A DNA stretch of 64,000 bases from contig PCXA01000001.1 of NCBI GenBank assembly GCA_002796325.1, positions 62,001-126,000 on the forward strand. Reading direction: 5' to 3'. The stretch comes from Deltaproteobacteria bacterium CG11_big_fil_rev_8_21_14_0_20_47_16 (GTDB lineage Bacteria; UBA10199; GCA-002796325; 1-14-0-20-47-16). Shown here one piece after another: positions 34,789-60,087 of this stretch. Each line of letters starts with the position of its first letter. Position 1 is the stretch's first letter. The position numbers and the translations under genes are program-made. The notes under the pieces were generated by a model. It saw nothing but the letters and a program-made list of their open reading frames with translations. It did no database searches and had not been told where the DNA came from.

Positions 34789-37116
34789 TTATCGCGCTGA
34801 TCTTAGAACAGTTTTAATACGGTCTAAAAGTTCTATCAGCTGGCTTGTGTCGGCATCTGTTAAAAATTCAAACTGACTCCGTCCGTTTTCCGTCGTTTGT
34901 TTCACTATACCGTATTTGGCTCGTATTAGTGCCTGTTCAACATAATTAATAGCAGCCCGAATCATTTCGAATGCCTCTGCCCCAGCAATCAATGAGGGCT
35001 GCACGATTAGTTCAATCGCTGGATCCAACATGCGTTGGAGGTGTGTGGGGTATTCCCGTAAGACTGCTTTGAGTCTGGGGTATAAATATGTCGACATGCC
35101 TTGAACGTCTGAAGAAGACTCTTCCCATTGCAGTGCGTGCCAAACATCATGCATCACCATGGTGTAGCCATGAGCATTGCCCTTAATATCGTCTAGGTAA
35201 ACACTGCGTCTCAGATCCACTTGTACAGGCGAGTTGCCATTTGAGTGGTGGTGATGAAAATCGTCGGCGGAGAGATTTCCAACTGCAAACCGCAACTTTG
35301 CAGAAAGCCGAGGGAAGGTATTGAGTATATATTCTTTAGAGGGGATGAGTTGGAAAGTATTATCACCAACAACGTTCACAGGAACTAAGTCATCACATAG
35401 TGCCTTAAAGGCAGGGATGATTCGGGAATAGGGGTCTTGCAATATACCCACCTCACGATGCAGTTTTGTTCCTGCCGCAATGTCAATACCATAGACGGGC
35501 CCTTTGTCTGTTGGAATGGTTCTAATCGAACCCCCATGGATCTTCATTTCGTGCAGAAATGCGTCTTCTAAAAAATCCCAAGCCAGAAACCCCAAGTCCG
35601 ATTCGCTGGCGGCTGAATTCTGCAGCTGATGTGCCTCGCTTGTAAACAGGGCCAGTTGGCCCAGTGGAATACTGGCAATGTGAGCTGTTAGCGCGCTGGA
35701 AAGTCGACGGAAATTGGATGTGCCTGCATCAATAATTGCACTTCTCACGTGTTGGAGCATTTCTGTGAGTTGTGTTTGATCAGTGTCTGAAAGTGAGGGG
35801 TAATCCAGCCCGTCTTTTGCCTTGGGTGCCAATCCTAACGACACTGTGTATATCATGGGGTCAAGTATACCAACACACTGCTGAACCATTCGGGCGGCGT
35901 TGGCACCTTGTTCAAGCGGGGGTTGTACAATGGTTTCAATAAGTTGTTCAAAATACGTTTGAAGATGTTCTGGGTATCTTCGCATAATGCGCTTAACGAT
36001 GGGGTAGAGATAGATGGAAAAATCTTTAATTTCAGGGGAAGAACCGTCCCACATTAAGGTATGCCAAACATCGTGCAATAGCATGACGAATCCATGGACG
36101 TTACTTTGTACGTCGTCTAGCCAAACGTCGAGACGTGGAGTGGCTTGTATAGGAGAGAGACCCTGTTCATGATGGTCGTGAAAGATGTCACTATTTAAAT
36201 TCCCTGTTAAAAAACGAAGGTTCCATCGAAGTGGGGGGTGGGTGTTCAAAAGATAGTCGACTGTTGGTAGAATGAAGAGACCGTCATTTATATGATTTAC
36301 AAAATAATGATTAAAGTGGGGAATAATGCGCGAAAATGCCAACTGCGTAATATCCAACTGGCGATGCATGTCTGTGTTACCCTGTTGGATAGTGTAGATA
36401 GGTCCAGCCTGTGTATCAAAAAAATCAACTTCAAATCCCATTGCTGAAATGCGTGTTAAAAAATCATATTCAAGTTGTTCCCAAGCGAGCCGTGCAAAGT
36501 CGAACTCGGTGGCCTCCCCTTGCCTAACCCTTTCGGCCATTGCGAGCTGATCTTGTTTTTGTTCCGCGGTAAGAATTGTTTCTGCATCAATAAAGTCATC
36601 CATGAATCGACTTGCAGTGCTCTCCGTTCGTCCCCCACCACCAATACTGCCACCAGCCATTGAAATGACTTTGAGTAGGCGCCCCATATTAGGGTGACTG
36701 GCAGAAATAAAATGTGTTTGATCGTGGAGTTGTTGCAGTTGAGTTTTTAGTCGATCGATTTCATGGACATTTCCCAGTCGTGACTGCTCTGCAATCTGCA
36801 TTTCAATAGATAGAATTTCACCCATCATGCGAACGGCATCTTCATATTCACTGTAGGTTTGTTGAATGGTTTTTCCAAAGCGATCAATGCCAATTGGAAT
36901 TCGGAATGTGTGTGGGGAACGTATTGGGGCTCGGCTTGGCGAGTCACTAGGGATAGATAGTGCAACGCCCACAATGCTGCCCCATCGGAGTAGTGCAGTA
37001 GGAATCAAAGGTGTTGGCTTGGGCGCACTGGGCACGTTGTCGTTAGCCGCAGGCATTGACCGTAGCCAGTCAAACGGACTGGTTTCAGGTAGCCGAATGG
37101 GTGCCAGTTTGGACAT
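34789..37116 (-). CDS. large hypothetical protein with two tandem copies of a His-rich HDVWH domain
   Basis: 775 aa; repeat 1 (aa ~207-462) and repeat 2 (aa ~508-771) align by eye: YSRIIP/FSRIIP, LRF..GNL..D.FH.HH, HG..M..HDVWH.L.W..SS, YLYP..K...R.YP.HLQ, IV.P.L..GA.A. N-terminus shared with the 52138-54648 product. Confidence 0.85.
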   Translation of the reverse strand: MSKLAPIRLPETSPFDWLRSMPAANDNVPSAPKPTPLIPTALLRWGSIVGVALSIPSDSPSRAPIRSPHTFRIPIGIDRFGKTIQQTYSEYEDAVRMMGEILSIEMQIAEQSRLGNVHEIDRLKTQLQQLHDQTHFISASHPNMGRLLKVISMAGGSIGGGGRTESTASRFMDDFIDAETILTAEQKQDQLAMAERVRQGEATEFDFARLAWEQLEYDFLTRISAMGFEVDFFDTQAGPIYTIQQGNTDMHRQLDITQLAFSRIIPHFNHYFVNHINDGLFILPTVDYLLNTHPPLRWNLRFLTGNLNSDIFHDHHEQGLSPIQATPRLDVWLDDVQSNVHGFVMLLHDVWHTLMWDGSSPEIKDFSIYLYPIVKRIMRRYPEHLQTYFEQLIETIVQPPLEQGANAARMVQQCVGILDPMIYTVSLGLAPKAKDGLDYPSLSDTDQTQLTEMLQHVRSAIIDAGTSNFRRLSSALTAHIASIPLGQLALFTSEAHQLQNSAASESDLGFLAWDFLEDAFLHEMKIHGGSIRTIPTDKGPVYGIDIAAGTKLHREVGILQDPYSRIIPAFKALCDDLVPVNVVGDNTFQLIPSKEYILNTFPRLSAKLRFAVGNLSADDFHHHHSNGNSPVQVDLRRSVYLDDIKGNAHGYTMVMHDVWHALQWEESSSDVQGMSTYLYPRLKAVLREYPTHLQRMLDPAIELIVQPSLIAGAEAFEMIRAAINYVEQALIRAKYGIVKQTTENGRSQFEFLTDADTSQLIELLDRIKTVLRSAR

Positions 37117-37197: not shown

Positions 37198-37380
37198 TTA
37201 CCACTCCTTCAATTCACCCTTCTTGATCTTATCGACCAAGATATTCCACTCTTCGCGCTTCAACGTGACGACGTTGTCGTCTTCGCCAATGGTGACCTTT
37301 TGGGTCGTTACATCAGCATCAACGGTGGGACAGCATTTACTGCCGCCACAGAGTACGATGGCTTCAAATGGCTTCTTCAT
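37198..37380 (-). CDS. small Cys-containing hypothetical protein (60 aa)
   Basis: MKKPFEAIVLCGGSKCCPTVDADVTTQKVTIGEDDNVVTLKREEWNILVDKIKKGELKEW; strong RBS (AAGGGGGGAG) upstream and its own terminator. Confidence 0.78.
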   Translation of the reverse strand: MKKPFEAIVLCGGSKCCPTVDADVTTQKVTIGEDDNVVTLKREEWNILVDKIKKGELKEW

Positions 37381-37409: not shown

Positions 37410-38159
37410 TTAGAAGTTCAAATCTTCCAAATCGGGAATGAAATCTTCCACGGGTCCGGTGTCTTCGGGTTCCGGTGGTGGTGTGGGGCGCAAGTTGTGC
37501 GGTGCAGGCCTTTGAAACCCATGACGCCCCAGCGACATATCGGGGCTGTTGCCGCGGACCACATCAATCCGACGTCCGGTTTGACGCTCCCATTTTTTCA
37601 ACGCCTTCTCTAGTAAGGGTTGGTTAACCGACCACAACTCGACTCCGCCTGCATTGATCATGGGGCGCGTGCTAAAGAGTGTGGCGCTAATGGTAAATGT
37701 TTGAAACCCCGATTCATCAGGGCCGCCCCACACTGTAAAGCTTGCGGGTTCTTGGATACGCACGCGAATTGGATTGTCGGGATTCCAATCGCTGCGTAAA
37801 AAACCGACAACGCTGAGTTTGAGTTTGAGTGTCCAAATGCGCTCTTTCAGATTTTTGAGAATGAGCATCAACTCATCCAAGAATGTCATTTGATCAAGGT
37901 TGCCGCGGTTGATTTGTTGGGTCGCATTAACGGTGGTGATTTCAATTGAATCTGGCATGACCACGCCAAAGAAGCTGCGTAAAAAGTTAAATACTTGTTC
38001 AAAGAACCAGACGTTATTTTCTTCCTGGCTCATACGCGTAAAATTGATGTTAGATGAAAAACCCCACGAGCCTACCGCATCCCCGCGTGCAGCGTGGTGC
38101 CGGTGCTGGTCATCCAGGTCCAAATCGAGGTCAAAGCCTTGTTTTTGAGGGGCAGGCAT
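37410..38159 (-). CDS. hypothetical protein
   Basis: 249 aa ORF (MPAPQKQGFDLDLDLDDQHRHH...), same strand as and about 50 nt downstream of nuoN. Confidence 0.7.
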   Translation of the reverse strand: MPAPQKQGFDLDLDLDDQHRHHAARGDAVGSWGFSSNINFTRMSQEENNVWFFEQVFNFLRSFFGVVMPDSIEITTVNATQQINRGNLDQMTFLDELMLILKNLKERIWTLKLKLSVVGFLRSDWNPDNPIRVRIQEPASFTVWGGPDESGFQTFTISATLFSTRPMINAGGVELWSVNQPLLEKALKKWERQTGRRIDVVRGNSPDMSLGRHGFQRPAPHNLRPTPPPEPEDTGPVEDFIPDLEDLNF

Positions 38160-41237: not shown

Positions 41238-43205
41238 TTACAAAATCATCCAACCCAATACGACAACTGATCCCAATACCAATAGGAAAACATAGTGAGG
41301 CACCAAGCCTGTTTCCATAGCTGTTCCAACGCGCCCAAAGAGACGTGCGATGCGTGCGCTGCCACCCACTAAAATTTTATCAATCAATACGGCGTCAACG
41401 GTTTGCCACAACACTGATCGTGAGAACCACAGAAGTGGTTGCACAACAACGGCATCATAAATTTGATCCACATAATATAGGTTAACCAACAACGTGTAGC
41501 AGCGTTTGAAGCGTGCGGCCATTTGATCGGCCCATCCACGATGCTGCGAATATAAAATCCAAGCGATGATGGCCCAGATAGCGCCCCACGTCATACTGCC
41601 CAATCCCATGAAGAGTTCGGTAGATTCATTGCCCGCTTCGTGCAGTGCGGTTGGAAAGAGTGGTGCGAGCCATGTCATAATGTGGTCGTGGCCACCCATG
41701 GCGTGGGGCACTCCAACCCATCCCCCTATAATAGATAGAACGGCCAATACGACGAGCGGCAAAAGCATAGTGACAGAGTTTTCGGGGTGAACATGGTGTG
41801 GACCAGCGGGGTTGCGTTTGCCGAAGAAGGCCAGGCCCACCAATCGGAACATGTAGAATGCCGTGAGACCTGCAGCGAGAGTAGCAATCAACCACAACCA
41901 GAAGTGTCCACTGCTATAGACGTGCCAGAGAATGGCATCTTTGCTGAAGAATCCTGCGAACGGCCAGATACCTGCGATGGCAAGAGTACCGATTAAGAAT
42001 GTGGTAAATGTTACGGGCAAGTGCTTGCGCAGACCGCCATACATGGAGAGACGTTGTTCGCCGTCCATGGCATGAATAACGCTGCCGGAACCCAAGAAGA
42101 GTAGTGCCTTAAAGAAGGCGTGGGTCATGACGTGGAAAATAGCAACGGAGAATGCGCCGACACCCAATGCCAAGAACATGAATCCCAACTGTGAAACGGT
42201 GGAGTAAGCGAGCACTTTTTTAATGTCGTCTTGTACAAGTCCCATCGTTGCAGCAAAAAATGCCGTCGCGCAGCCCACAATGGCAATAACGTTTAATGTG
42301 GTAGGCGCTAAAACAAACAAAAAGTTAAGGCGTGCTACCATGTAGATACCGGCGGTCACCATTGTGGCGGCGTGGATCAATGCTGAAACGGGCGTGGGAC
42401 CTGCCATGGCATCGGGCAGCCAGACATAGAGCGGAATCTGTGCTGATTTTCCGGTGGCGCCCAAGAACAAAAGAAGTGTGGCTGCCGTTGCGACAGGTGC
42501 CAAAAATGCAGCGTGAGTAGAGATGTAGCTAAACGACAAGATGGCGTCACCAGGCTGAGCGGTGGGCTGCAAGGCCTGCCAGATAAAGAAGATACCCAAG
42601 ACAAATCCAAAGTCACCAATGCGGTTTACGATAAAAGCTTTTTTACCAGCTTTAGCCTTTTCAATGTCGGTAAACCAAAATCCAATGAGCAGGTAAGAGC
42701 AAAGCCCTACCCCTTCCCAGCCCACAAACATGAGTGGGAGGCTGTCACCCAAGATGAGGAGCAACATGAAGAATAGGAATAAGTTTAAGTACGCGAAGTA
42801 TTTGGCAAAGCCATCATCGTGCGACATGTAACCAACGGAATACAAGTGAATGAGGGAGCCCACCCCGGTGACAACAAGCGCCATGATAAGAGAGAGTTGG
42901 TCGAGCTTGAGTCCAATGGTCACAGCCCATTGCGTACCGCCGAACCATGTAAAGAGTGGGCCAGTGGATACAGAGTGTGAGTCTTCCAGTCCCATCGCAA
43001 TATAAAAGAGCACAGCAACAATCAGGAATGAAATGAGCGGCATCACGACGGCGATGGTACCAGACAATGCATGTGATGGTTTCCACTGACTACGTGTTGA
43101 GAATAAATACATTTTGCCGTTGGCGATGGCACCTAGGAGCGGCAATAACGGAATCAAACACATGAGTGTCGGAATAGAGATGTGTTGTAAAAGTTGTTCA
43201 ATCAT
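41238..43205 (-). CDS. nuoL: NADH-quinone oxidoreductase subunit L
   Basis: FVGWEGVGLCSYLLIGFWF, KSAQIPLYVWLPDAMAGPTPVSALIHAATMVTAGIYMVAR. Confidence 0.96.
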   Translation of the reverse strand: MIEQLLQHISIPTLMCLIPLLPLLGAIANGKMYLFSTRSQWKPSHALSGTIAVVMPLISFLIVAVLFYIAMGLEDSHSVSTGPLFTWFGGTQWAVTIGLKLDQLSLIMALVVTGVGSLIHLYSVGYMSHDDGFAKYFAYLNLFLFFMLLLILGDSLPLMFVGWEGVGLCSYLLIGFWFTDIEKAKAGKKAFIVNRIGDFGFVLGIFFIWQALQPTAQPGDAILSFSYISTHAAFLAPVATAATLLLFLGATGKSAQIPLYVWLPDAMAGPTPVSALIHAATMVTAGIYMVARLNFLFVLAPTTLNVIAIVGCATAFFAATMGLVQDDIKKVLAYSTVSQLGFMFLALGVGAFSVAIFHVMTHAFFKALLFLGSGSVIHAMDGEQRLSMYGGLRKHLPVTFTTFLIGTLAIAGIWPFAGFFSKDAILWHVYSSGHFWLWLIATLAAGLTAFYMFRLVGLAFFGKRNPAGPHHVHPENSVTMLLPLVVLAVLSIIGGWVGVPHAMGGHDHIMTWLAPLFPTALHEAGNESTELFMGLGSMTWGAIWAIIAWILYSQHRGWADQMAARFKRCYTLLVNLYYVDQIYDAVVVQPLLWFSRSVLWQTVDAVLIDKILVGGSARIARLFGRVGTAMETGLVPHYVFLLVLGSVVVLGWMIL

Positions 43206-43209
43206 TCAC

Positions 43210-43515
43210 TTAGCCCTTTAGTTCTTTCCATGATGTCACGCGCACGCCGCTGGTATGGCGGAATGCGGCGATGACAATGCCTAAGCCTACAGCCGCTTCT
43301 GCTGCCGCAATAATAAAGACAAAAAGTACGGCAACTTGCCCGTCCAAGTGACTGCTAAATCGCGAAAATGCAACGAGTGCTAAGTTGGCAGCAGACAACA
43401 TTAACTCCACCGACATTAAAATAATCAGCAAGTTGCGACGTGTGAGTACGCCAAAGATGCCTATAATGAATAGTAGGCAGCTGATGACAATGTAGTGATG
43501 AACTGTAATTTCCAT
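43210..43515 (-). CDS. nuoK: NADH-quinone oxidoreductase subunit K
   Basis: HHYIVISCLLFIIGIFGVLTRRNLLIILMSVELMLSAANLALVAFSR; VFIIAAAEAAVGLGIVIA. Confidence 0.95.
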   Translation of the reverse strand: MEITVHHYIVISCLLFIIGIFGVLTRRNLLIILMSVELMLSAANLALVAFSRFSSHLDGQVAVLFVFIIAAAEAAVGLGIVIAAFRHTSGVRVTSWKELKG

Positions 43516-43517
43516 TC

Positions 43518-44024
43518 TTACTCCACTGGTTTGCGAGCCAAAATGACCGCACCAATAATTGCAACCAACAACAAGACAGATGTCATTTCAAATGGAACCA
43601 AATAGTCGGTGAGTAGCAATTTGCCGACAGCCTCAATGGTGCCTTCCATTTCATTCGCAACAACACCTTGTGTAAAAAATTGCCGCCATCCAAAGAAGGC
43701 CAATGCAATTACGCCGGCCAAATAGAGTGCAGCACTTCCCTGTACCAATCGATTGCCAGCGATAGTGCGGAGTTTAACTTTTTCAGGTTCTAAATTGAGA
43801 AGCATGATGACGAAAATAAACAGCACCATGATGGCGCCGGCATACAAGATGATTTGCATGATCGCGACAAAGTGGGCGTGGAGTAGTACAAAGAGTGCCG
43901 CAAGAGAGAAGAATGTGCCCACAAGTGATACTGCAGCGCCAATGGGGTTGGGTTGCACAACGACAGTTACCGCCAGGAGGACGGTTGTCACTGCAAAGAA
44001 ATAGAATAGGTAAGCTTCAATCAT
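43518..44024 (-). CDS. nuoJ: NADH-quinone oxidoreductase subunit J
   Basis: MIEAYLFYFFAVTTVLLAVTVVVQPNPIGAAVSLV; QIILYAGAIMVLFIFVIMLLN. Confidence 0.94.
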   Translation of the reverse strand: MIEAYLFYFFAVTTVLLAVTVVVQPNPIGAAVSLVGTFFSLAALFVLLHAHFVAIMQIILYAGAIMVLFIFVIMLLNLEPEKVKLRTIAGNRLVQGSAALYLAGVIALAFFGWRQFFTQGVVANEMEGTIEAVGKLLLTDYLVPFEMTSVLLLVAIIGAVILARKPVE

Positions 44025-44028
44025 AAGT

Positions 44029-45279
44029 TTAATGTACAAACACAAGCCATGCGCTTGTGATAACAATGTTAAATAACGCCACCGGAATCATGCCCTTCCA
44101 ACCCAAGTCCATGAGTTGGTCATAGCGAAACCGTGGCAGTGTCCAGCGCACCCAAATAAAGAATGCGCAGAAGAATAATGTTTTTGCGAGTACCACACCC
44201 ATTTGCAATGCGGCTACTAAAACAGGCCCCACCCAAGTGGGTAACGTTGTGCCGTGAAGAAGTAGTGTGGCACCAATCATCAAGAAACCAATCAACACAT
44301 GGGGAACACCGAAGATCAAAACTTCGTAATCGCGCGCATCGTTATATTTGTGGCGGCGGAATTTGCTGCACAGGAAAAGTCCAAAGGCAATGGCACCCAC
44401 AGCCAATGCGGGTAGGCCCATGCTGAGTGCGGCTTCGGGGTACACGCGAATCCAGTCGAAGTCTAAGCCGGGAAGGTTCCATCCCCCAAAAAAGAGGAGC
44501 GATACAATGAGTGAACCCACAGCGATGTGTGCGTATTCCGCCATGAAGAAGAGTGCAAACTTCATGCTGCTGTATTCAGTGTGGAACCCTGCAACCAGTT
44601 CGGATTCGCCTTCGGCCAAGTCAAATGGGTTGCGGTTGGTTTCGGCAAACAGCGACGTTAAGAATAGGACAAATGCAATCGGTTGTGTGAAAGCGTACCA
44701 GTGGAAGCCTGTTTGCTGAGACACAATTTCGGTGATGCGGACAGTGCCGGTTACTAAAAAGAGCCCGATCAGCGCGAGTCCCATGGCAATTTCATACGAT
44801 ACCATTTGGGCGGATGCGCGCAGTGTGCCCAAGAGTGAGTAGCTGTTGTTAGATGACCAACCGCCCAACATGACACCATAGACGCCAAGAGAACCGATAC
44901 CCAATATATAAAGGATGCCGATATTTAAGTCCGCTACTTGCATGGGGATAGTGAGTCCACCCAAGTGCAGTGGTTCGGCAAATGGCACCACACCAACCGT
45001 TGCGGATGCGACAAAAATGGCAATCATGGGGGCAACCACATAAATGATGCGACTGGCTTTTGTGGGGATGATGTCTTGCTTGCAAAATAGTTTTACCACA
45101 TCGGCCAAGTTGTGGATCATGCCGCCTAAGCGAATCCCTAAAATCTGGGCGCGATTGGGACCACGGCGATCTTGAATGTAAGCACTGCCCTTGCGCTCAA
45201 ACCAGATGAGAACAGGAATGAGTTGCAGAATAAGTGCAACGATGACAATCGCTTTGATGGCAGCAATAATGAGTTCCAT
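44029..45279 (-). CDS. nuoH: NADH-quinone oxidoreductase subunit H
   Basis: ERKGSAYIQDRRGPNRAQILG, FAETNRNPFDLAEGESELVAGFHTEYSSMKFALFFMAEYAH. Confidence 0.96.
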   Translation of the reverse strand: MELIIAAIKAIVIVALILQLIPVLIWFERKGSAYIQDRRGPNRAQILGIRLGGMIHNLADVVKLFCKQDIIPTKASRIIYVVAPMIAIFVASATVGVVPFAEPLHLGGLTIPMQVADLNIGILYILGIGSLGVYGVMLGGWSSNNSYSLLGTLRASAQMVSYEIAMGLALIGLFLVTGTVRITEIVSQQTGFHWYAFTQPIAFVLFLTSLFAETNRNPFDLAEGESELVAGFHTEYSSMKFALFFMAEYAHIAVGSLIVSLLFFGGWNLPGLDFDWIRVYPEAALSMGLPALAVGAIAFGLFLCSKFRRHKYNDARDYEVLIFGVPHVLIGFLMIGATLLLHGTTLPTWVGPVLVAALQMGVVLAKTLFFCAFFIWVRWTLPRFRYDQLMDLGWKGMIPVALFNIVITSAWLVFVH

Positions 45280-46796
45280 TAGTCGACGAGCTTCCCTTCA
45301 TCACCCAACTCATCCCAACGTAGGGACTTATAAGCGGGTACGGATTTGGCCAATAGGTCGAAACAGTCACGTGCGGTGTCTGGAATTTTGCCACCCTCTA
45401 AAAGCGAGATGTGAGAGGCAATGTTCCAAGCGGCCTTGGCTTCGCCGCGCGGTGCAATGGCTTTATGGAAACGCTGCACACGGCCTTGATAGTTGGTGAA
45501 TGTGCCATCTTGTTCGGCAAATGTTGCAAGTGGTAACACTACATCTGCAAATTCAAACTTGGTAGAGCTATTGCTGGAAATAACCACAACCACTTCAGGT
45601 TTTTTGGTGGCAATCGTGTGTAAGTCTGTTTCGCTCGCTTCACCCACAACAAAGAGCAGTTTACATTTTCCAAGGTCGAGCGGCTTAAGGCCCAGCGCCC
45701 TGGTTGTATAGCTGTTGGGATTTTTGTCAGCGCGTCGCAATAGCGTGTCTTCGCTGGGGCTTTCAACAACTTTACCCGTTCCGTATTGAGCAGCACCTGT
45801 CCACTGGGTGGTAACGAGTGAATGCCATGCGGCCAGGTCTTCGTTGCTGAGTTGCGCAGAAAGCAACGCCGCACGTTGATCGGGTGAATAATTTTGCAGG
45901 AGCATGCGTACTTGGTTCCAGGCGTTTTCCCATGTGGTGCGTTCAAGCCCACCTTCTTTGCGAACGAGTGGTGATAAAATACGATCATCATTAATATATT
46001 TATAAGTCACGCGGCCTTCGTCGCACATCCAACATTGGTTTACCGCTTCGTTGTCCCGGGGACGGTAGCGGTACACAACCCCACCTTCGTGATCCATGGT
46101 GATGTTGCAGCCTGTTGAACAGCCCGTGCAAACGGACTTGGTCTTTTGCAAGAACCAGACGCGCTTATTAAATCGGAAGTCGGTAGAGGTCAATGCACCT
46201 ACGGGACAGATATCAACCGTGTTAATACTGTAGGCGTTCTTCATGGGTTGGCCGTTGAACGTTGAAACCGTTGAATGGTCGCCACGGTTATCGATGCATA
46301 ACTCGGCATCACCCGCCACTTCATCGCAGAAGCGCACGCAGCGTGAACAGAGAATGCAGCGTTCATCATCGAGCATCACGCGTTCGCCCAATGGTTTGGC
46401 TTTAGGTTTGTGAACCTTTTCTTCCTTAAAGCGCGAAGGAACAGACGAATATTGGAAGTAGTAGTCTTGCAACTTGCACTCACCGGCTTGATCGCAGATG
46501 GGGCAATCCAGTGGATGGTTAACCAAAATGAATTCGAGCACACTCTTTTGGGCATCAACCACCGCTTGCGATTTGGTGCGGACTTTCATGCCTTCGGCAA
46601 CTGGGGTGTTGCAGGAAATTTCTAACTTTGGGCGGCCTTCGATTTCCACCAAACACATGCGGCAGTTGCCTGCGATAGACAGTTTAGGGTGATAGCAGTA
46701 ATGCGGCACAAACAGGCCCTTGTCCAAACAGACCTGCAAGACCGTTTGGCCTGCTTCAACTTCAAATTCTTTGTCATCAATCGTAATCTTTGGCAT
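45279..46796 (-). CDS. nuoG: NADH-quinone oxidoreductase subunit G (short, 505 aa)
   Basis: 2Fe-2S/4Fe-4S N-terminus (HYCYHPKLSIAGNCRMCLVEIEG, HPLDCPICDQAGECKLQDYY, CILCSRCVRFCDEVAG, CTGCSTGCN) followed by a shortened molybdopterin-oxidoreductase-like part. Confidence 0.93.
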   Translation of the reverse strand: MPKITIDDKEFEVEAGQTVLQVCLDKGLFVPHYCYHPKLSIAGNCRMCLVEIEGRPKLEISCNTPVAEGMKVRTKSQAVVDAQKSVLEFILVNHPLDCPICDQAGECKLQDYYFQYSSVPSRFKEEKVHKPKAKPLGERVMLDDERCILCSRCVRFCDEVAGDAELCIDNRGDHSTVSTFNGQPMKNAYSINTVDICPVGALTSTDFRFNKRVWFLQKTKSVCTGCSTGCNITMDHEGGVVYRYRPRDNEAVNQCWMCDEGRVTYKYINDDRILSPLVRKEGGLERTTWENAWNQVRMLLQNYSPDQRAALLSAQLSNEDLAAWHSLVTTQWTGAAQYGTGKVVESPSEDTLLRRADKNPNSYTTRALGLKPLDLGKCKLLFVVGEASETDLHTIATKKPEVVVVISSNSSTKFEFADVVLPLATFAEQDGTFTNYQGRVQRFHKAIAPRGEAKAAWNIASHISLLEGGKIPDTARDCFDLLAKSVPAYKSLRWDELGDEGKLVD

Positions 46797-46799
46797 CGT

Positions 46800-48080
46800 T
46801 TATTCCCACGTTTGAATCTGTTGCCCTTTACGTAACCCTAATTTTCCAGCGTCTTCGAATTCGTGTCTGAATTTTTGAATGTAACTTTTAACCGGCATGG
46901 CTAGCGCGTCTGAAAATACGCAAATGGTGCGGCCTTGCATGTTGGTAGCAACACTTAATAATAAATCACAATCGCCAGGGCGAACTTCGCCGCGCACCAC
47001 GCGGGCCAAAACTTTTTGAATCCAACCGGTGCCTTCACGGCACGGGGTGCACTGTCCGCAAGATTCGTGGTGGTAGAAGTCGCCCAAAATTTTGAGTGCG
47101 GTGACCATGCACGTTTGGTCATCCATAATGACCATACCACCGGAACCCAACATGGTGCCCGCGGCACCAAGTGATTCGTAATCCAAATTCACTTTCATCG
47201 CTTCTTCGGCAGTGAGGATTGGAACAGACGAACCACCCATAATGACGGCCTTCAACTTGCGACCTTTCCACACACCACCGCATTGCTTCTCTAAAAATTC
47301 TGAGAATGGCAGGCCCAACGGTATTTCATAGTTGCCGGGCTTGTTGATGTGGCCACTTACGCTAAAGAGTTTTGTGCCGGTGGACTTGCCCACGCCGATT
47401 TTGGCGTACTCGGCGGCACCCTTCTCTATTATATAAGGAACCGCCATGAGTGTTTCGACATTGTTCACAACAGTTGGGCATCCAAAGACACCGACAACAG
47501 CTGGGAACGGCGGCTTGATACGTGGCTGGCCCTTTTTACCTTCGAGTGATTCAATGAGCGCGGTTTCTTCACCGCAGATGTAGGCGCCCGCACCACGATG
47601 CATGTAGACGTCTAATTTAAAATCGTGACCGGCAACTTTGTTACCCAAAAATCCTTTGGCGTAGGCTTCGTCGATTGCCCTTTGTAGAATTTGTAGTTCT
47701 TGGAACATTTCACCGCGGATGTAGATGTAGGCCGTGTGAGATTCCAGCGCATAACAGGTGATGATGATGCCTTCGAGCAGCGCATGTGGATCTTTGGTCA
47801 TGAGCTCGCGGTCTTTAAATGTACCTGGCTCTCCTTCGTCGGCATTCACGCACAGGTAAATGGGTTTGCCGGTGGTCTTGGGAACGAACCCCCACTTCAC
47901 ACCTGCCGGAAATCCTGCGCCACCACGGCCTCGCAAGCCACTTGCCTTGACTTCGTCGATGACTTGCGCCGGCGTCATGGTAAACAACTTGCTTAATGTG
48001 GAATAACCACCGGTGGCCATGTAGCCATCAATGGTTGCCGCATTTGAAACTGCAAAGCGTTTGGTTAAAATAGGTTCCAT
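46800..48080 (-). CDS. nuoF: NADH-quinone oxidoreductase subunit F
   Basis: SGLRGRGGAGFPAGVKWGF, CVNADEGEPGTFKDRELM, GAGAYICGEETALIESLEGKKGQPRIKPPFPA, ESCGQCTPCREGTGW. Confidence 0.97.
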   Translation of the reverse strand: MEPILTKRFAVSNAATIDGYMATGGYSTLSKLFTMTPAQVIDEVKASGLRGRGGAGFPAGVKWGFVPKTTGKPIYLCVNADEGEPGTFKDRELMTKDPHALLEGIIITCYALESHTAYIYIRGEMFQELQILQRAIDEAYAKGFLGNKVAGHDFKLDVYMHRGAGAYICGEETALIESLEGKKGQPRIKPPFPAVVGVFGCPTVVNNVETLMAVPYIIEKGAAEYAKIGVGKSTGTKLFSVSGHINKPGNYEIPLGLPFSEFLEKQCGGVWKGRKLKAVIMGGSSVPILTAEEAMKVNLDYESLGAAGTMLGSGGMVIMDDQTCMVTALKILGDFYHHESCGQCTPCREGTGWIQKVLARVVRGEVRPGDCDLLLSVATNMQGRTICVFSDALAMPVKSYIQKFRHEFEDAGKLGLRKGQQIQTWE

Positions 48081-48560
48081 TTATTTCAAATCCTTTAACA
48101 ACTTATCAATGCTTTCACGTGTTAAGTTCAATTGGTAGTCGTCATTCACTTGCATCATGGGCCCGCCACCGCATGCCGCCAAACATTCGACTTCGGATAA
48201 TTTGAATTTACGATCTTCCGTCATTTCACCTGGCTTGATGCCCAATTTTTCTTCTAAGTATTGGGTGGTCTCACCTGCACCGCGCAACCAACAGCAAATG
48301 TTGCGGCAGACTTGCAAATGATATTTGGCAGGTGGTTCCTGATTGTACATGGTGTAGAAGGTGACAACTTCTTGAACATGCGCCGGTGTGCATCCACAAA
48401 TTCGCGCCACTTCAACCATAGCCTCTTTTGAAATCCAGCCCTCTTGATATTGGACTTCCCACAAAATAGGCAGCAACGCCGCTTGCTTATGGTCTGCAGG
48501 ATAATGCGTCAGCAGCTCTTCCACATTTTTCATGCGTTCATTTGTAAATTTAAAACTCAT
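48081..48560 (-). CDS. nuoE: NADH-quinone oxidoreductase subunit E
   Basis: 2Fe-2S thioredoxin-like: VVTFYTMYNQEPPAKYHLQVCRNICCWLRGAGE, EVECLAACGGGPMMQVND. Confidence 0.95.
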   Translation of the reverse strand: MSFKFTNERMKNVEELLTHYPADHKQAALLPILWEVQYQEGWISKEAMVEVARICGCTPAHVQEVVTFYTMYNQEPPAKYHLQVCRNICCWLRGAGETTQYLEEKLGIKPGEMTEDRKFKLSEVECLAACGGGPMMQVNDDYQLNLTRESIDKLLKDLK

Positions 48561-49738
48561 CGATCCAACTCCCCGGCAACGACGTTCAGTGTTCCTAAGA
48601 TAGCAACGGCGTCCGCGATCATTTGTCCCTTAATTAGTTCGGGAAACGCTTGGTAAATGGCAAAGCATGGTGGACGCACTTTGATGCGATAGGGTTTTCC
48701 GCTGCCATCGCTGACAATATAAAAACCCAGTTCACCGTTTGCGGCTTCGGTATATGAATAGACTTCACCCGGTTCCACTTTAATTCCGAACATGATGAGT
48801 TCAAAGTGGCGGATTAAGCCTTCAATTGAATTGTAAACTTCGTGTTTGGGTGGCAACACCACCTGATTGTTGGCCACTTCGATGGGGCCATCTGGTAATT
48901 TGTCGAGCGCTTGTTCAATGATGCGTGTGGATTGCACCATTTCTTCGAAGCGCACAAACAGGCGATCGTAGCAATCGCCCACCACACCCACAGGAACATC
49001 CCAGCTAAAGCGATCGTAATCATAATACGGTGCTGCTTTGCGCACGTCGTAGTCTACACCACAGGCGCGCAAACACGGACCGGTAAATCCCCAGTTGATG
49101 GCGTCTTCTGCGGAAATCACGCCCACGTTTTGGGTGCGATCCATAAAGATGCGATTCTTTTTGAGTAAACCTGTAACATCTTTAACGGCTTTGTTGAGTT
49201 CTTTGAGGCAGCTGCGCAATTCTTTGTCGGAACCCGCTGGCAAGTCTTTGGCAAGTCCACCGACACGCACATAGGTGTTGGTAAGTCGCGCGCCACAGAG
49301 GCGTTCCACCCAGTTGGTCATGGTCTCACGCACATTGAAGAAATACCAGAAGTTGGTGAGCGCGCCCAAGTCGACCAAGTTGGTGCCGATACAGACCAGG
49401 TGGTCCATGATGCGGGACAGTTCGCTAATAATGACGCGAATGTATTGGCAGCGCGGTGGAATTTGCAGTCCCAACAGCTTTTCGACCGCCATGGCATAAC
49501 CCACGTTATTCATAAGTGCAGATAAATAATTCAGGCGATCGGTGTATGGAAAAATTTGGGTGTAAGTATGGTCTTCGGATTCTTTTTCAAAGCAGCGGTG
49601 CAAGTATCCAATTTCAGGGTTGGCATCGACAATGGTTTCACCATCGAGCGTGAGCAATACACGCAGCGTTCCGTGCATGGTGGGATGCGACGGGCCCAGA
49701 TTCAAGTGCATCTTATGTGTGTGTAGCGATAGATCCAT
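48557..49738 (-). CDS. nuoD: NADH-quinone oxidoreductase subunit D
   Basis: LNLGPSHPTMHGTLRVLLTLDGETIVDANPEIGYLHRCFEKESEDHTYTQIFPYTDRLNY. Confidence 0.97.
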   Translation of the reverse strand: MDLSLHTHKMHLNLGPSHPTMHGTLRVLLTLDGETIVDANPEIGYLHRCFEKESEDHTYTQIFPYTDRLNYLSALMNNVGYAMAVEKLLGLQIPPRCQYIRVIISELSRIMDHLVCIGTNLVDLGALTNFWYFFNVRETMTNWVERLCGARLTNTYVRVGGLAKDLPAGSDKELRSCLKELNKAVKDVTGLLKKNRIFMDRTQNVGVISAEDAINWGFTGPCLRACGVDYDVRKAAPYYDYDRFSWDVPVGVVGDCYDRLFVRFEEMVQSTRIIEQALDKLPDGPIEVANNQVVLPPKHEVYNSIEGLIRHFELIMFGIKVEPGEVYSYTEAANGELGFYIVSDGSGKPYRIKVRPPCFAIYQAFPELIKGQMIADAVAILGTLNVVAGELDR

Positions 49739-49741
49739 TGT

Positions 49742-50221
49742 TTAGTCCAATAGTGAAATGGGTGTCGGAATTTGCTGCCGTTTATTCACTGGGTAATCCT
49801 TGCGTAGCGCATGGCCTTCAAACCCTTCGTACGTGAGAAGTCTTCGCAAATACGGATGCCCATCAAAAATAATTCCAAATAAGTCAAATGCCTCGCGCTC
49901 AAACCAATTGGCAGACTTCCAAATTCCAATCACTGTGGGAACGTGGGGATCGGCTTCGGTAACCCGCACCTTGAGACGAATGCGTTTGCGCGTGGATTGG
50001 CTGTACATGTGATACACCACTTCAAAACGATCCTTGCGTTCGGGGTAATCCACACCGCAGACATCCATTAAAAAGTTCATGCTGCAGCTCTCTTGAAGAT
50101 AGCGACAGACATCAATCAAGTGACTGACTTTGATAACAGCAGTATCGTCACCACGAAACGAACTGGTTTCAATAACGGCATCACCAAACTGCTGTTTGAG
50201 TTGATCTAAAAGTTGCTGCAT
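49742..50221 (-). CDS. nuoC: NADH-quinone oxidoreductase subunit C
   Basis: YHMYSQSTRKRIRLKVRV...WKSANWFEREAFDLFGIIFDGHPYLRRLLTYEGFEGHALRKDYPV. Confidence 0.96.
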   Translation of the reverse strand: MQQLLDQLKQQFGDAVIETSSFRGDDTAVIKVSHLIDVCRYLQESCSMNFLMDVCGVDYPERKDRFEVVYHMYSQSTRKRIRLKVRVTEADPHVPTVIGIWKSANWFEREAFDLFGIIFDGHPYLRRLLTYEGFEGHALRKDYPVNKRQQIPTPISLLD

Positions 50222-51051
50222 TATTTATCCCGTTTGCGCTGAAAACCAACATCACCTGACGTGACGGCATCACTGACAATGCCGTACAAAATGCCGTCAT
50301 CGACGTTATTTTTGACATTGGCCAGTTCGGTGCGTGCTGTTTTGCCCACATCGCTGCTGCCGGCCTTTTTAATCAATTCTTCATATGCGGTAATAGCTGC
50401 CTTGCGATATTTTTCGCCGCGCACGATCAGCTCGTCTTCTGCCACACTTCCGTTATAGAGCATCCATGCCCATTTGCGATGGATCCACCAAATGTCTTCG
50501 TTTAAACGTGCGTATAAGAGGCGTGCCTTCAAATTCCACTCACCTTTATACTTATTGATGTAATCTTGTACGCGACCCAAGACATCTTCGGGAGCACCCA
50601 ACAAATTCTTTTCCAATTGAAAATAGGCAGCTTCTGCTGCGGCATCGCTCTTGGGATAGTCGGTGGCAACCTGTTGGTAATGTGTTCCCATGTAGCGAAT
50701 GATGATTTGTGTGGGGAAAAATTGGAACGCGCCGGCACCATAATGCGCATTCATCTTTTCAGCGTATTGTCCCATGCATGCGGGTGTTTTGGGTGAGCCC
50801 TTTTTGCGGTAACATTCTTGTTCGGCGTCGTTATTGACCTGTTCCGCATATTTGTCGAGCGAGCGCCCTAGCCACAAAAGCGCTTCCGGCTTTGTTTTGC
50901 TGTCGGCTGACTTTGTAGCATCTACAAAGAAATCAGCCGCTTCTTTATACTGTCCCTGATTGTAAAGCGATTGTCCTTGCGCAAAATCCACCTTATCTTT
51001 GGCCAATGCGACAGCGGAAACCATCATGAGTGCAATCAGAATGTGTTTCAT
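50221..51051 (-). CDS. exported TPR-like protein of unknown function, embedded in the nuo operon
   Basis: Signal peptide [20 protein letters not shown]; helical-repeat-like [28 protein letters not shown] overlap with nuoB and 1-nt overlap with nuoC. Confidence 0.82.
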
Positions 51052-51569
51052 GAGTTGCGGACCTCGCGTGCAGGTAAAATGGGAATGACACGGTCATATT
51101 TGGGACGATCTTTGCCTGTAATTTTATCCTGCAACCGTAAAACGGCATGCAACACCTGCTCGGGTCGTGGTGGGCAGCCTGGAATATACACATCCACCGG
51201 AATAATTTCGTCAATACCCTGCAAGGTGCTGTAATTGTCGTAGAATCCGCCGCTGGAGGCGCAGGCGCCCATGGCAATGCACCACTTGGGTGGGCTCATT
51301 TGTTCCCAAACGCGCTTTAGAATGGGCGCCATTTTATAGGTGATGGTGCCCATGACCATCATGAGGTCGGCTTGGCGCGGGGAAAAGCGCACGAGTTCAG
51401 CGCCAAAACGGGAAATATCAAAGTGTGAAGATACAACACCCATGAATTCAATGGCGCAGCAGGCCGTACCAAAGGGCATGGGCCATAGGGAGTTTTTCTG
51501 CCCCCATGCCACGACTTCATCGAGTCGGGTGGTTAAAAAACCATCTGTAAATTCGTTACCACGTGCCAT
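51048..51569 (-). CDS. nuoB: NADH-quinone oxidoreductase subunit B
   Basis: [93 protein letters not shown]. Confidence 0.97.
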
Positions 51570-52137: not shown

Positions 52138-54648
52138 TTAGGGCGTGGGAAAGTTGTCCCACGTGAATTGATAGCCAAATGTGAGCACACGGCGGACGAG
52201 GGGAAGTGGCAGGTTGCCGGTATATGCAGACGTGACGTTAGGGAGATTTTGCAACCACTCCTCTGGAAAGATCTGTGCTGCCGCAGCGGTGCGCAAAAGA
52301 TCGATGCGGTGGTGACCGTCCAGTAAGAGTGCAGGTTCGCCTGCGCCGAGGCGAAGAACGTGTAACCCAGGGCGGGGATCTACATCCATTGGCGTTGCCA
52401 GGACGTCCGTTCGGAAATCCTCAATGGCAGAGGTTAAAAAGAGGTCTGGGCCAACATTACTGCGTCTTAGTTGACGAAGTCTTTCAATCTCTTGTGTAAA
52501 GAGGTCGGTGTTATATCGGTATGGGCCATGCATGGGGCGGATGTTCCCCAGTGCAATGGGTCGGCCTGCGTTTATTCTCAGGTTATTGCATTCTTGTGTC
52601 TGTGGATCACGGCCTATAACTTGATCAAACAGTTGCCAGTCATTTTGAGTCAACACTGCCTTTGTATAGTCTAATGCGGGTCCCGACATGATTTGGTAGT
52701 GAAACATGTCATCGGTAATTTCGTCCGGTTGCATGGCGCCACTGGTTTTTAATAGTTTCCACGCAGCCATGACGACCTCAGTGCTGGTATCTTTAAATCC
52801 CATCAGAATGAGGGGTCTTATCTGTTGGCGTTGTGCTTCAGTGTCATGGGGAAGCTGCTGTGCCCGTTGCAATGCATAGAGCCGCTGCTGCTGGCCAGGG
52901 GAGTATCTTAAAATGGTGGTAATATCCTGCCAGGCATCTGGTGAGGTTTGTAAGTGGTCATCTGCCCTTAATCGATTACGGGCCGCATCGGGATCTGGAA
53001 ATTGCAAAAGTCCTTTTGGAAGATGGAGCTTCACCGTTGTGCCATGCCCCACTTGGGATTCAATCTCAGGCGTGATGCCGAGTGCGGCGCAGGCGGTGCG
53101 AATACGTTGCCATCCGAAGCCGTGAAACTCATTGGGGTTGTTGTGATTAACCGGCGCACCATCATGAACAGGGGCACCATTTAAGAGCATCGCTGCCACA
53201 TCTTGCGACATGCCCGCACCACGATCTGTCACTTTAATCACAAGTGCCTGATGCTTGGCGCTATATGTCAGCTTAATGTGAATGTGTGCACGTGGTCGAA
53301 GGGGGCCCTTATGTTGTACAGCGTTATTCACCAGATTTCGCAAGATGATAGCGAGCTGTTGGCAATCCACATCATTGGCCAGTGTTACATTGTCGAAACC
53401 TTCGAATGTAATATCAGCGGTTAATTGCCATCGGGAACGAAGATTGTGAGTGATGTCTGCGAGGTTGTGAGGAATTTGTGCCTGTTGCATCTGCTCTAAA
53501 AGGTCTATCCATGAAGTTCCTTCTTCAACAAGTGTTACCCTCTCTGCGGCGTGGCCCAAAAGACTCATGATATCATGGATCAGCTGGCGCTGTTCCGGAC
53601 TTGTCGATAATTGACGTGTGGCTTCGGCAAAGCGTCTGATTTGAAAGGCAATTGCAATGTCGAGTTGGTAAGGGCGTGACCAGTAACCTACAACACGACG
53701 GCGTAATGCAATGGCGTAGGCTAAAACCGCATTTGCGGCCTCGTCCGCCAAGACCTCATCTCCATGCTCAATGGCGTAGCGCATATGGGTCATAAGCAGT
53801 TCTGGAAATTTGATCTCTTGTATGCGGTTCATGACGCGATCAGTGCTGCGCTCAATGAGCGGCTTCATTTCACCTGAAAAGTGGTGTGTGTATTGCCGTG
53901 CCAATGTGATGAATGTAACATCTCCCGTAATAAGTGCTGCACGTTGTGCAAGGGTTGTGGTGCGGATCCAGTTGGCATCGTGCTGTATTGGAAGAGTTTC
54001 GAGTTGTGCTGCTAACGCCGTGAGCTTTTGATAAAGCACTTCGGGATCGGGAAAAGCGCCTTGCCGTTCTAGCAATTCATCCAAGTCATCCATGCGCTCA
54101 TGGGGGTCGATGTCGGCAGTTGCGGGACCCATACTGCTGCTGCCAGCGGAGGCGACAATGCGGAGGCCGCCACCGATGATGGGGTGGACCGTTGCAATGA
54201 AACTTGCTTGCTCATGGAGTGAATTGAGTTGCGCTTGCAGCTGATCGATGGCCGTTCGATTTCCAAGGCGCGTTTGTTCCCAAAGTTGCATTTCGATGGA
54301 CAGGATTTGTTGCATGATCTTGGCCATCTCTTGAAACTCGCTGAAAACTTGTTGGATGGTTTTACCAAAGCGATCAATGCCAATGGGGAAGCGAAGTGGC
54401 TGCGCTGGTTTGGGTCTGAGGTGGTGATGTGGTTCGGAGTCTTGTGAGACCGATAGCGCAAGCCCAATGAAGGTGCAGGCATGTCCGGCGATTCCCAAAA
54501 AGCGTGAAAATGCAGAGGGCGATTCTACAGGAATCGGTTCTACGAGTCGTAGTTGCGGCCGCACCATATTGTCATTGGCGGCAGGAGTCTCTTGTAAATG
54601 AGTCCACAGGTTAACAACGGGAGCGGGTAGCTTGGGCGCAATCGTCAT
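52138..54648 (-). CDS. histidine-kinase-like protein: shared N-terminal module, HATPase domain, C-terminal ParB/Srx-like DGHHR motif
   Basis: 836 aa; N-box NLVNNAVQH (aa 438-446), G1 VTDRGAGM, G2 GFGWQRI, VGHGTTVKLHLPKG; putative phosphoacceptor LIHDIMSLLG; LLLDGHHRIDLLRTAAA (aa 774-790). N-terminus matches the 34789-37116 protein. Confidence 0.85.
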   Translation of the reverse strand: MTIAPKLPAPVVNLWTHLQETPAANDNMVRPQLRLVEPIPVESPSAFSRFLGIAGHACTFIGLALSVSQDSEPHHHLRPKPAQPLRFPIGIDRFGKTIQQVFSEFQEMAKIMQQILSIEMQLWEQTRLGNRTAIDQLQAQLNSLHEQASFIATVHPIIGGGLRIVASAGSSSMGPATADIDPHERMDDLDELLERQGAFPDPEVLYQKLTALAAQLETLPIQHDANWIRTTTLAQRAALITGDVTFITLARQYTHHFSGEMKPLIERSTDRVMNRIQEIKFPELLMTHMRYAIEHGDEVLADEAANAVLAYAIALRRRVVGYWSRPYQLDIAIAFQIRRFAEATRQLSTSPEQRQLIHDIMSLLGHAAERVTLVEEGTSWIDLLEQMQQAQIPHNLADITHNLRSRWQLTADITFEGFDNVTLANDVDCQQLAIILRNLVNNAVQHKGPLRPRAHIHIKLTYSAKHQALVIKVTDRGAGMSQDVAAMLLNGAPVHDGAPVNHNNPNEFHGFGWQRIRTACAALGITPEIESQVGHGTTVKLHLPKGLLQFPDPDAARNRLRADDHLQTSPDAWQDITTILRYSPGQQQRLYALQRAQQLPHDTEAQRQQIRPLILMGFKDTSTEVVMAAWKLLKTSGAMQPDEITDDMFHYQIMSGPALDYTKAVLTQNDWQLFDQVIGRDPQTQECNNLRINAGRPIALGNIRPMHGPYRYNTDLFTQEIERLRQLRRSNVGPDLFLTSAIEDFRTDVLATPMDVDPRPGLHVLRLGAGEPALLLDGHHRIDLLRTAAAAQIFPEEWLQNLPNVTSAYTGNLPLPLVRRVLTFGYQFTWDNFPTP

Positions 54649-57844: not shown

Positions 57845-58969
57845 ATGGGTTGTCGGCGGTTGTTGAGTGTTCTGGCGTTGGTTTTTCTGGCGGCATGTTC
57901 CAAAACCAACCAAAATGAAATTGTAATTGGGGAATTCTCGTCACTCACCGGCAATACCGCATCATTTGGAATCGCATCACATAATGGATTTGCGATGGCG
58001 ACCGAGGAACGCAACGCCAATGGCGGTGTGTTGGGTAAGCAAATCAAATTGGTTACCGAAGATGATCAAGGCAAGTCCGAAGAAGCGCGCTCCTCCGTAC
58101 TAAAATTGATTCGCTATCACAAAGCAAAGGCGCTCCTGGGAGAGTTTGCATCATCACGCAGTATTGCAGCAGCTCCCGAAGCTCAGAAGTTCCACGTTCC
58201 CATGGTTTCCCATGGTTCTACCAACCCCAAAGTCACAGAGTTTGGTGATTACATCTTCCGCACCTGCTTTATTGATCCTTTCCAAGGCAAAGCCATGGCC
58301 AAGTTTGCGTATAATACATTGGGGATTCGCCGTGCGGCCATTCTGCGTGACGTGAAAAATGATTATAGTGTTGGTTTGGCCAAATACTTTCAAGAAACGT
58401 TTCAAGCGTTGGACGGTACCATTGTTGCAGATGAATCGTATAGTGAAGGCGATGTGGAGTTTCGGTCACAGCTCACTGCAATGAAGGCGCTCAAGCCACA
58501 AGCAGTATTCATTCCTGGTTACTATACTGAAGTAGGGTTGATTGCGCGTCAGGCACGTGAGTTGGGAATTGATGTGCCGCTTCTGGGCGGCGATGGTTGG
58601 GATTCGCCCAAGACGGCTGAGATTGGTGGTAAGGCAATTGATGGGTCTTATTTCAGTAATCACTATGCGCAGGACGATCCCGATCCCAAGGTCCAAAACT
58701 TTATTAAAAAATACAAAGCCAAATATGGCAGCGTTCCAGACTCACAAGCGGTTTTGGCGTATGATGCAGCGAATCTTCTTTTTGATGCCATTCAGCGTGC
58801 AGGTTCAACCGATGGCGACAAGATTCGTGCAGCGCTTGCTGCAACCAATGGCTTTCCGGGTATTACTGGCAGCATTACGATTGATCCCAATCGCAATGCT
58901 CAAAAATCCTTGGTGATTGTGCAATACAGCAATGGCAAACCAATATTTAAGGATCGGGTGGGCTCATGA
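57845..58969 (+). CDS. branched-chain amino-acid ABC transporter substrate-binding lipoprotein (copy 1)
   Basis: Lipobox ALVFLAACSKT; IVIGEFSSLTGNTASFGIASHNGFAMATEERNANGGVLGKQIKLVTEDDQ; Liv operon context. Confidence 0.92.
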   Translation: MGCRRLLSVLALVFLAACSKTNQNEIVIGEFSSLTGNTASFGIASHNGFAMATEERNANGGVLGKQIKLVTEDDQGKSEEARSSVLKLIRYHKAKALLGEFASSRSIAAAPEAQKFHVPMVSHGSTNPKVTEFGDYIFRTCFIDPFQGKAMAKFAYNTLGIRRAAILRDVKNDYSVGLAKYFQETFQALDGTIVADESYSEGDVEFRSQLTAMKALKPQAVFIPGYYTEVGLIARQARELGIDVPLLGGDGWDSPKTAEIGGKAIDGSYFSNHYAQDDPDPKVQNFIKKYKAKYGSVPDSQAVLAYDAANLLFDAIQRAGSTDGDKIRAALAATNGFPGITGSITIDPNRNAQKSLVIVQYSNGKPIFKDRVGS

Positions 58970-60087
58970 TGAAACGATTCGTCATTCCAGTGGTGCTTCT
59001 TGGACTTGTGGCGTGCCACAAGTCATCCACGAACGAAATTCGCATTGGTGAATATAATTCACTCACCGGTGGGACGGCCACATTTGGTCAAGACTCTCAC
59101 GATGGCATCGCTTTGGCGATTGAAGAGGCCAATGCGGCAGGCGGTGTGTTGGGGAAAAAGATCGTGCTCATTACCGAAGATGACCAGAGTCGTCCCGAAG
59201 AAGCGAAGGCAGCAGTACTTAAATTAATCCAGCGTGAAAAAGTTGTCGCACTCTTGGGTGAAGCGGCCTCCGGTCGATCTTTGGCTGCGGCCCCCGAGGC
59301 CCAACGCTACAAGGTGCCCATGATTGCACCGTCCGCAACCAACCCAAAGGTCACTCAAATCGGCGATTTTATTTTCCGCGCCTGCTACATCGATCCGTTC
59401 CAGGGTGAGCAGGTGGCGCGGTTTGCAGTCGAGTCACTCAAACTTAAGAAGTTTGCCATTCTGAAAGACGTCAAAAATGACTACAGCGTGGGTCTAGCCA
59501 AAGTGTTTGAAGATGCAGTTAAAAAAATGGGCGGTGAAATTGTTGATGTCGCATCTTACAGTGAAGGTGATGTGGAATTTCGCTCACAACTTACCGCCAT
59601 TAAGGCCACACACCCGGAAGCAATTTTTATCCCTGGGTATTACACCGAAGTTGGGTTGATTGCGCGTCAGGCACGTGAATTGGGAATCGACGTTCCCTTG
59701 TTGGGCACGGATGGTTGGGATTCGCCAAAAACGGTCGAGATTGGTGGCAAGGCGGTTAACAACAGCTACTTCAGTGCGTCATTTATGGCGGACGATCCTG
59801 ATCCCTCGGTGCAAACATTCATCAAAAAATTTAAAGCCAAGTACGGTCACGTCCCCTCGGGCATTGCTGTTTCGGGGTATGATGCGGCACAACTCTTGTT
59901 AAATGCCATGACGCGTGCAGGATCGACCGATTCCCAAAAAATTCGGGATGCCTTGGCGACCACCAAAAATTTCGAAACAGTGACGGGTAGTATCAGTGTT
60001 GGACCAGATCGTAATCTTCGCAAACGTTTGGTTATTGTCAAAATTGATGAAGAACAACCCAAATTTTATACAGCAGTAAATCCATAA
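58966..60087 (+). CDS. branched-chain amino-acid ABC transporter substrate-binding lipoprotein (copy 2)
   Basis: Lipobox LLGLVACHKS; IRIGEYNSLTGGTATFGQDSHDGIALAIEEANAAGGVLGKKIVLITEDDQ; paralogue of the preceding CDS. Confidence 0.92.
   Translation: MMKRFVIPVVLLGLVACHKSSTNEIRIGEYNSLTGGTATFGQDSHDGIALAIEEANAAGGVLGKKIVLITEDDQSRPEEAKAAVLKLIQREKVVALLGEAASGRSLAAAPEAQRYKVPMIAPSATNPKVTQIGDFIFRACYIDPFQGEQVARFAVESLKLKKFAILKDVKNDYSVGLAKVFEDAVKKMGGEIVDVASYSEGDVEFRSQLTAIKATHPEAIFIPGYYTEVGLIARQARELGIDVPLLGTDGWDSPKTVEIGGKAVNNSYFSASFMADDPDPSVQTFIKKFKAKYGHVPSGIAVSGYDAAQLLLNAMTRAGSTDSQKIRDALATTKNFETVTGSISVGPDRNLRKRLVIVKIDEEQPKFYTAVNP

Follow-up and report, generated by a model that had tools for sequence, protein, structure and literature searches.

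A tandemly duplicated, lineage-restricted orphan domain family with a candidate HDxxH active site

Among the closest described systems is COQ4 (PF05019; structure 6E12), which acts in the oxidative decarboxylation of CoQ precursors (PMC12938788) and contains the motif HDxxH-(X)10-13-E, described as metal-liganding (PMC9774615). The M78/ImmA-IrrE zincins (PF06114) resemble the domain reported here in having H-acid-x-x-H on a helix and a later acidic residue; however, their motif acid is Glu where the present family has Asp, and no profile similarity is found between the two. HD-domain phosphohydrolases show the same order of His...His-Asp...Asp but differ in the spacing of the first His. Finally, the constant-module proteins of another family of the host phylum, here called f12, likewise carry HDxxH domains C-terminal to a shared module. 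We compare with these systems a gene found in a window of 64,000 nucleotides, the whole stretch of DNA analyzed, from Deltaproteobacteria bacterium CG11_big_fil_rev_8_21_14_0_20_47_16.

The gene is an open reading frame of 775 aa on the minus strand, with an ATG start and without internal stop (Table 1). It converges with a neighbor that we take to encode a methionyl-tRNA synthetase and whose end lies 3 bases from its own. Upstream, two short ORFs on the same strand (37198-37380 and 37410-38159), neither of which gave a significant Pfam match, are followed by NADH-dehydrogenase genes. The initial annotation had described the protein as containing two copies of a domain of roughly 260 aa. A self-comparison recovered both copies close to the positions given there, with 37% identity (107/288) at 200 bits and an E value of 4e-67, and the Smith-Waterman score of copy 1 against copy 2 (512) lies far above the scores of 500 shuffles (mean 33, sd 5, maximum 56). 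The duplicated domain is therefore well established, although the conserved unit is closer to 280 aa than to the length first proposed.

Table 1. Coordinates of the features discussed, in positions of the window.
Feature	Position	Strand	Remark
775-aa ORF	34789..37116	-	N-terminal module and two HDxxH domains
N-terminal module	36592..37116	-	residues 1-175
HDxxH domain, copy 1	35725..36549	-	residues 190-464; self-comparison
FHDHH, copy 1	36169..36183	-	residue 312; one His only recurs in near relatives
HDVWH core, copy 1	36061..36075	-	residues 348-352
IETIVQP, copy 1	35920..35940	-	Glu394, conserved acidic position, 46 residues after HD motif
HDxxH domain, copy 2	34795..35658	-	residues 487-774; self-comparison
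FHHHH, copy 2	35245..35259	-	residue 620; one His only recurs in near relatives
HDVWH core, copy 2	35137..35151	-	residues 656-660
IELIVQP, copy 2	34996..35016	-	Glu702, conserved acidic position, 46 residues after HD motif
836-aa protein	52138..54648	-	same N-terminal module, histidine-kinase-type ATPase C-terminus, without HDxxH domain

The initial annotation had not recognized the family, and likewise no significant match to the 775-aa protein or its family was obtained in Pfam, NCBIfam, PHROGs, PADLOC or the PDB sequences. The source genome (1.95 Mb, 99.75% complete) contains no second full copy of the protein, and a scan of genome contigs with the whole protein as query yielded no relative. 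The search of 61 related genomes gave two weak matches, which are free-standing proteins of 433 aa in G015 (Deltaproteobacteria bacterium RIFCSPHIGHO2_01_FULL_43_49) and of 354 aa in G011 that both contain the core of the 775-aa protein. Searches with profiles derived from these two proteins led to further members, namely two proteins of isolate OFTM19 (G014) as well as, in G016, an ORF of 1484 aa that carries four domains and another of 710 aa. Two-domain proteins are encoded in G043 (1115 aa) and G026 (906 aa), and single HDxxH domains are found both in several ORFs of up to about 1740 aa and in free-standing members of 300-430 aa. A three-member profile matched only two named relatives; the final profile, which comprises 28 sequences and was run over 385 genomes, gave 39 matches in 11 of the 47 genomes covered from the host phylum (UBA10199 in GTDB) and none in the 338 genomes from outside it. 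No relatives were found on viral contigs, phages or plasmids. The single weak phage match, to Acinetobacter phage Ab9 (E 0.03), was attributed to chance, because it lacks the motif and is located among structural genes. We conclude that the HDxxH family is genuine, that it is duplicated and restricted to one lineage, and that this orphan has a clear candidate for an active site.

The core alignment has 41 rows, corresponding to 38 distinct copies once overlapping loci are removed. The two His residues are aligned in all 38 copies, with an insertion to be bridged in one protein. The Asp of HDxxH is kept in 34 copies, the exceptions being two with Glu, one with His and one with Gly. These counts are biased toward conservation by the anchoring of the alignment on the motif. 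For this reason, a separate check was made on nine members that were found later and had no part in the profile: seven of them keep HD-x(2-3)-H, although profile searching itself favors the motif, so that selection accounts for some of its conservation. The core of the family can be written as H-[D, rarely E]-x(2-3)-H, the form with one residue inserted, HD-x(3)-H, being present in 14 copies. About 45-55 residues after the core, an Asp or Glu is found in 30 of the 31 rows extending that far. A Tyr or Phe about 20 residues after the core (the Y of YLYP) is conserved family-wide, and most copies have a "VHP" turn ([VA]HP-like) before the core, the His of which is kept in 20 of 27. Outside the core, identity falls to about 20% among members.

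The initial annotation had made its case depend on the conservation of the His and Asp residues among homologues, and these are kept in nearly all copies. It had also taken the invariant His/Asp clusters to suggest a metal site or catalytic center. This interpretation is supported in part: a putative role in metal binding or catalysis is reasonable for HD-x(2-3)-H, but the FHxHH cluster is mostly a local feature, only one of its His residues recurring in the nearest relatives, with Arg or other residues elsewhere. Similarly, the motifs listed there are all present in the protein (SRIIP at residues 262 and 564 and YLYP at 369 and 677 of copies 1 and 2, respectively), but SRIIP, FHHHH and the P of YLYP are confined to the 775-aa protein or its closest relatives and do not extend through the family. 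In two members of one genome (L032 and L070 of G027), HExxH replaces HDxxH, the motifs reading HERFH and HERYH. Two neighboring members of about 300 aa (L114 and L073, at G014:C357) stop a few to about 20 residues after HDxxH and have no downstream acidic region; their genes may be truncated, or the two may form a subtype of their own.

A tree of the core pairs the two copies of the 775-aa protein as sisters (support 0.996) and joins them to the single-domain protein of G015 (support 0.84). The repeated copies of f12 form a group of their own. Since the former are sisters and the latter separate, the tandem duplication occurred at least twice and independently. Every copy in the multi-copy proteins keeps the core (2 in the 775-aa protein, 4 in that of G016); this speaks against the view that some copies are redundant and decaying.

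With COQ4, both copies and nearly all of their relatives have the HDxxH core in common. The likeness is collinear and weak, and extends over about 50-65 columns, including a preceding G-x-[IL]-x-R...G-x-x-P segment. However, the Glu that follows HDxxH by 10-13 residues in COQ4 is missing in the family: no conserved acid is present at this distance, where the copies of the 775-aa protein read HDVWHTLMWDGSSPEIKD and HDVWHALQWEESSSDVQG, and the acid about 45-55 residues on is found instead. The HD-x(3)-H variants further set the family apart from COQ4. An hhalign comparison with 39 bacterial COQ4 domains gave a score of 28.5 and a probability of 22% (18-22% with full profiles), the probability ranging from 2.5 to 25% on random subsets of 15 COQ4 sequences. 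The maximal score of 100 column shuffles that preserve HDxxH was 20.9, in a control that is lenient because it also destroys local sequence patterns. Single COQ4 sequences took the top ranks, above 315 control ORFs. None of the 28 members matched PF05019 at E values up to 10, and COQ4 itself was not found in the source genome.

Structure prediction with AlphaFold gave one model of copy 2 at medium confidence (pLDDT 72.7, pTM 0.68, four sequences in the alignment); the other four models had pLDDT values of 57-63, and the full-length model (pLDDT 44.6, pTM 0.28) was left out of fold searching. A Foldseek search with the medium-confidence model returned no PDB match at E 0.001 and no BFVD match, and no COQ4 entry was present among its 50 best PDB matches. 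Because the Glu is absent, Pfam gave no COQ4 match and the copy-2 model has no PDB relative, we did not file the family as COQ4. That the HDxxH core operates in the manner of the metal site of COQ4 is kept as a hypothesis.

The N-terminal module of the 775-aa protein has a Pro-rich start, a weak hydrophobic stretch at residues 37-55, an RFGKTIQQ motif and predicted long helices. Its N-terminal ~155 aa are common to exactly three proteins of the source genome, which have unrelated C-termini. One of the other two carriers is the 836-aa protein of the window, whose module shows 44% identity over residues 9-175 of the 775-aa query; the other lies on a different contig (L003; G000:C5:116354 onward) and has no recognized domain. 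Elsewhere in the phylum, no convincing match to this module was found. The f12 module, for which residues 94-301 of L027 were used as query, also precedes some HDxxH domains but is unrelated in sequence, and in contrast to it the module of the 775-aa protein is present on three proteins only. The f12 module has a hydrophobic Gly/Ala-rich part of about 200 aa behind a helical lead-in. In each of five genomes (G016, G021, G026, G043 and G031; e.g., L202, L206 and L209) it was found between 27 and at least 67 times, often in tandem, and the open frames that contain it range from about 190 to 2556 aa. In a sample of 37 carriers, Pfam identified parts of acetyl-CoA carboxylase/biotin carboxylase and of fungal-type fatty-acid synthase as well as sigma-70 regions, amine oxidase, PAS and histidine-kinase domains. 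As the module of the 775-aa protein is common to three proteins with unrelated C-termini, the HDxxH domain is, judging by its sequence context, one of several cargoes carried on constant modules. Since the recognized cargoes are enzymes and regulators, targeting or assembly is favored over toxin delivery as the putative role of these modules. The C-terminus of the 836-aa protein contains a DGHHR segment that appears ParB-like by eye.

The conserved residues are few, namely two near-invariant His, an Asp and a distal acid, and this pattern suggests that they form a center for a divalent metal. Our main reading, to which we assign a probability of about 40%, is that the proteins constitute a new, phylum-restricted family of metal-dependent enzymes. 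HDxxH on an active-site helix and the Asp/Glu one or two helices later would hold the divalent metal, perhaps with a contribution from the His of the VHG/VHP turn in front of the motif. As both copies of the 775-aa protein keep the core His, Asp and acid residues, activity is probable for each of them, and their tandem arrangement might raise the copy number or form an internal dimer. The substrate may be lipid- or quinone-like, by weak analogy with COQ4, and the N-terminal module would bring the enzyme to the location of the two other proteins that carry it. The duplication, the conserved residues, the confinement to one phylum and the common N-terminal module are established by the data, whereas metal binding, catalysis, class of substrate and localization are inferred. 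Among the observations that count against a metal enzyme are the insertion in the 14 copies with HD-x(3)-H, which shifts the helix register, and the two short members that end just after HDxxH, without the acidic residue.

The same core could instead hold a structural ion or a ligand, as is often the case in large repeat proteins, and the domains would then be non-catalytic binding or scaffold repeats. The presence of one, two or four domains per protein, in ORFs of up to about 1740 aa, agrees with this, as do the tolerance of the motif for a one-residue insertion and for rare changes of Asp to Glu, His or Gly, and the low identity outside the core. Conversely, a sequence in which hardly anything but H, D, H and a distal acid is near-invariant shows the usual pattern of a catalytic center, and single-domain members of 300-430 aa are free-standing; we regard such repeats as possible but doubtful. 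That the proteins are polymorphic effectors or toxins, in which a constant N-terminal module delivers variable C-termini including HDxxH, is suggested by the three unrelated C-termini behind the module in the source genome and by the many places of the f12 module, some of which are followed by HDxxH domains. It is nevertheless unlikely, given that the recognized cargoes of the f12 module are housekeeping and regulatory enzymes and sigma-70 factors with no toxins among them, that PADLOC gave no match, and that no obvious immunity partner was identified beside the 775-aa gene.

Compared with known metal-dependent hydrolases, a zincin-like metallopeptidase, with HDxxH (or HExxH, as in two members) as its motif and a distant acidic residue as third ligand, would account for the two HExxH motifs and for the downstream acidic residue. 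However, Asp replaces the catalytic Glu in almost all copies (HD in 34/38, HE in 2/38), no Pfam peptidase was matched, hhalign against the M78 HExxH family gave a score of 11.1 and a probability of 0.1%, which is background level, and the fold search of the medium-confidence copy-2 model returned no zincin, so that we consider this assignment very unlikely. The order of His, His-Asp and Asp/Glu along the chain would also fit a divergent phosphohydrolase of the HD superfamily (H...HD...D). HD domains need their first His on a separate preceding helix, whereas in the present family the upstream His precedes HD by just 7 residues and varies among members; moreover, no Pfam HD match was obtained and no HD-domain entry is present among the PDB matches listed, which makes this reading most improbable.

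The family is a well-delimited orphan, with about 40 copies in 11 genomes, and its candidate active site is evident enough to be probed directly by mutation and metal analysis. If the weak link to COQ4 were true, the family would serve as a bacterial outgroup in the continuing debate on the metal and the mechanism of that enzyme. The occurrence of the domain on modules common to unrelated enzymes points to an unstudied protein-sorting or multi-enzyme organization in the phylum. A wider claim, that H-D-x(2-3)-H and a distal Asp/Glu define a new class of metalloenzymes in one uncultured phylum, duplicated independently and borne on modules that send many enzymes to one place, is speculative and rather doubtful at present.

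Two further arrangements were observed in the window. In the NADH-dehydrogenase run on the minus strand (41238-51569), an additional, uncharacterized gene of 276 aa (50221-51051) lies between the genes of the 159-aa and 173-aa subunits. On the plus strand, two tandem genes for ABC-transporter substrate-binding lipoproteins of 374 and 373 aa (57845-60087), which are clearly alike by eye, precede permease and ATPase genes of the branched-chain amino-acid type.
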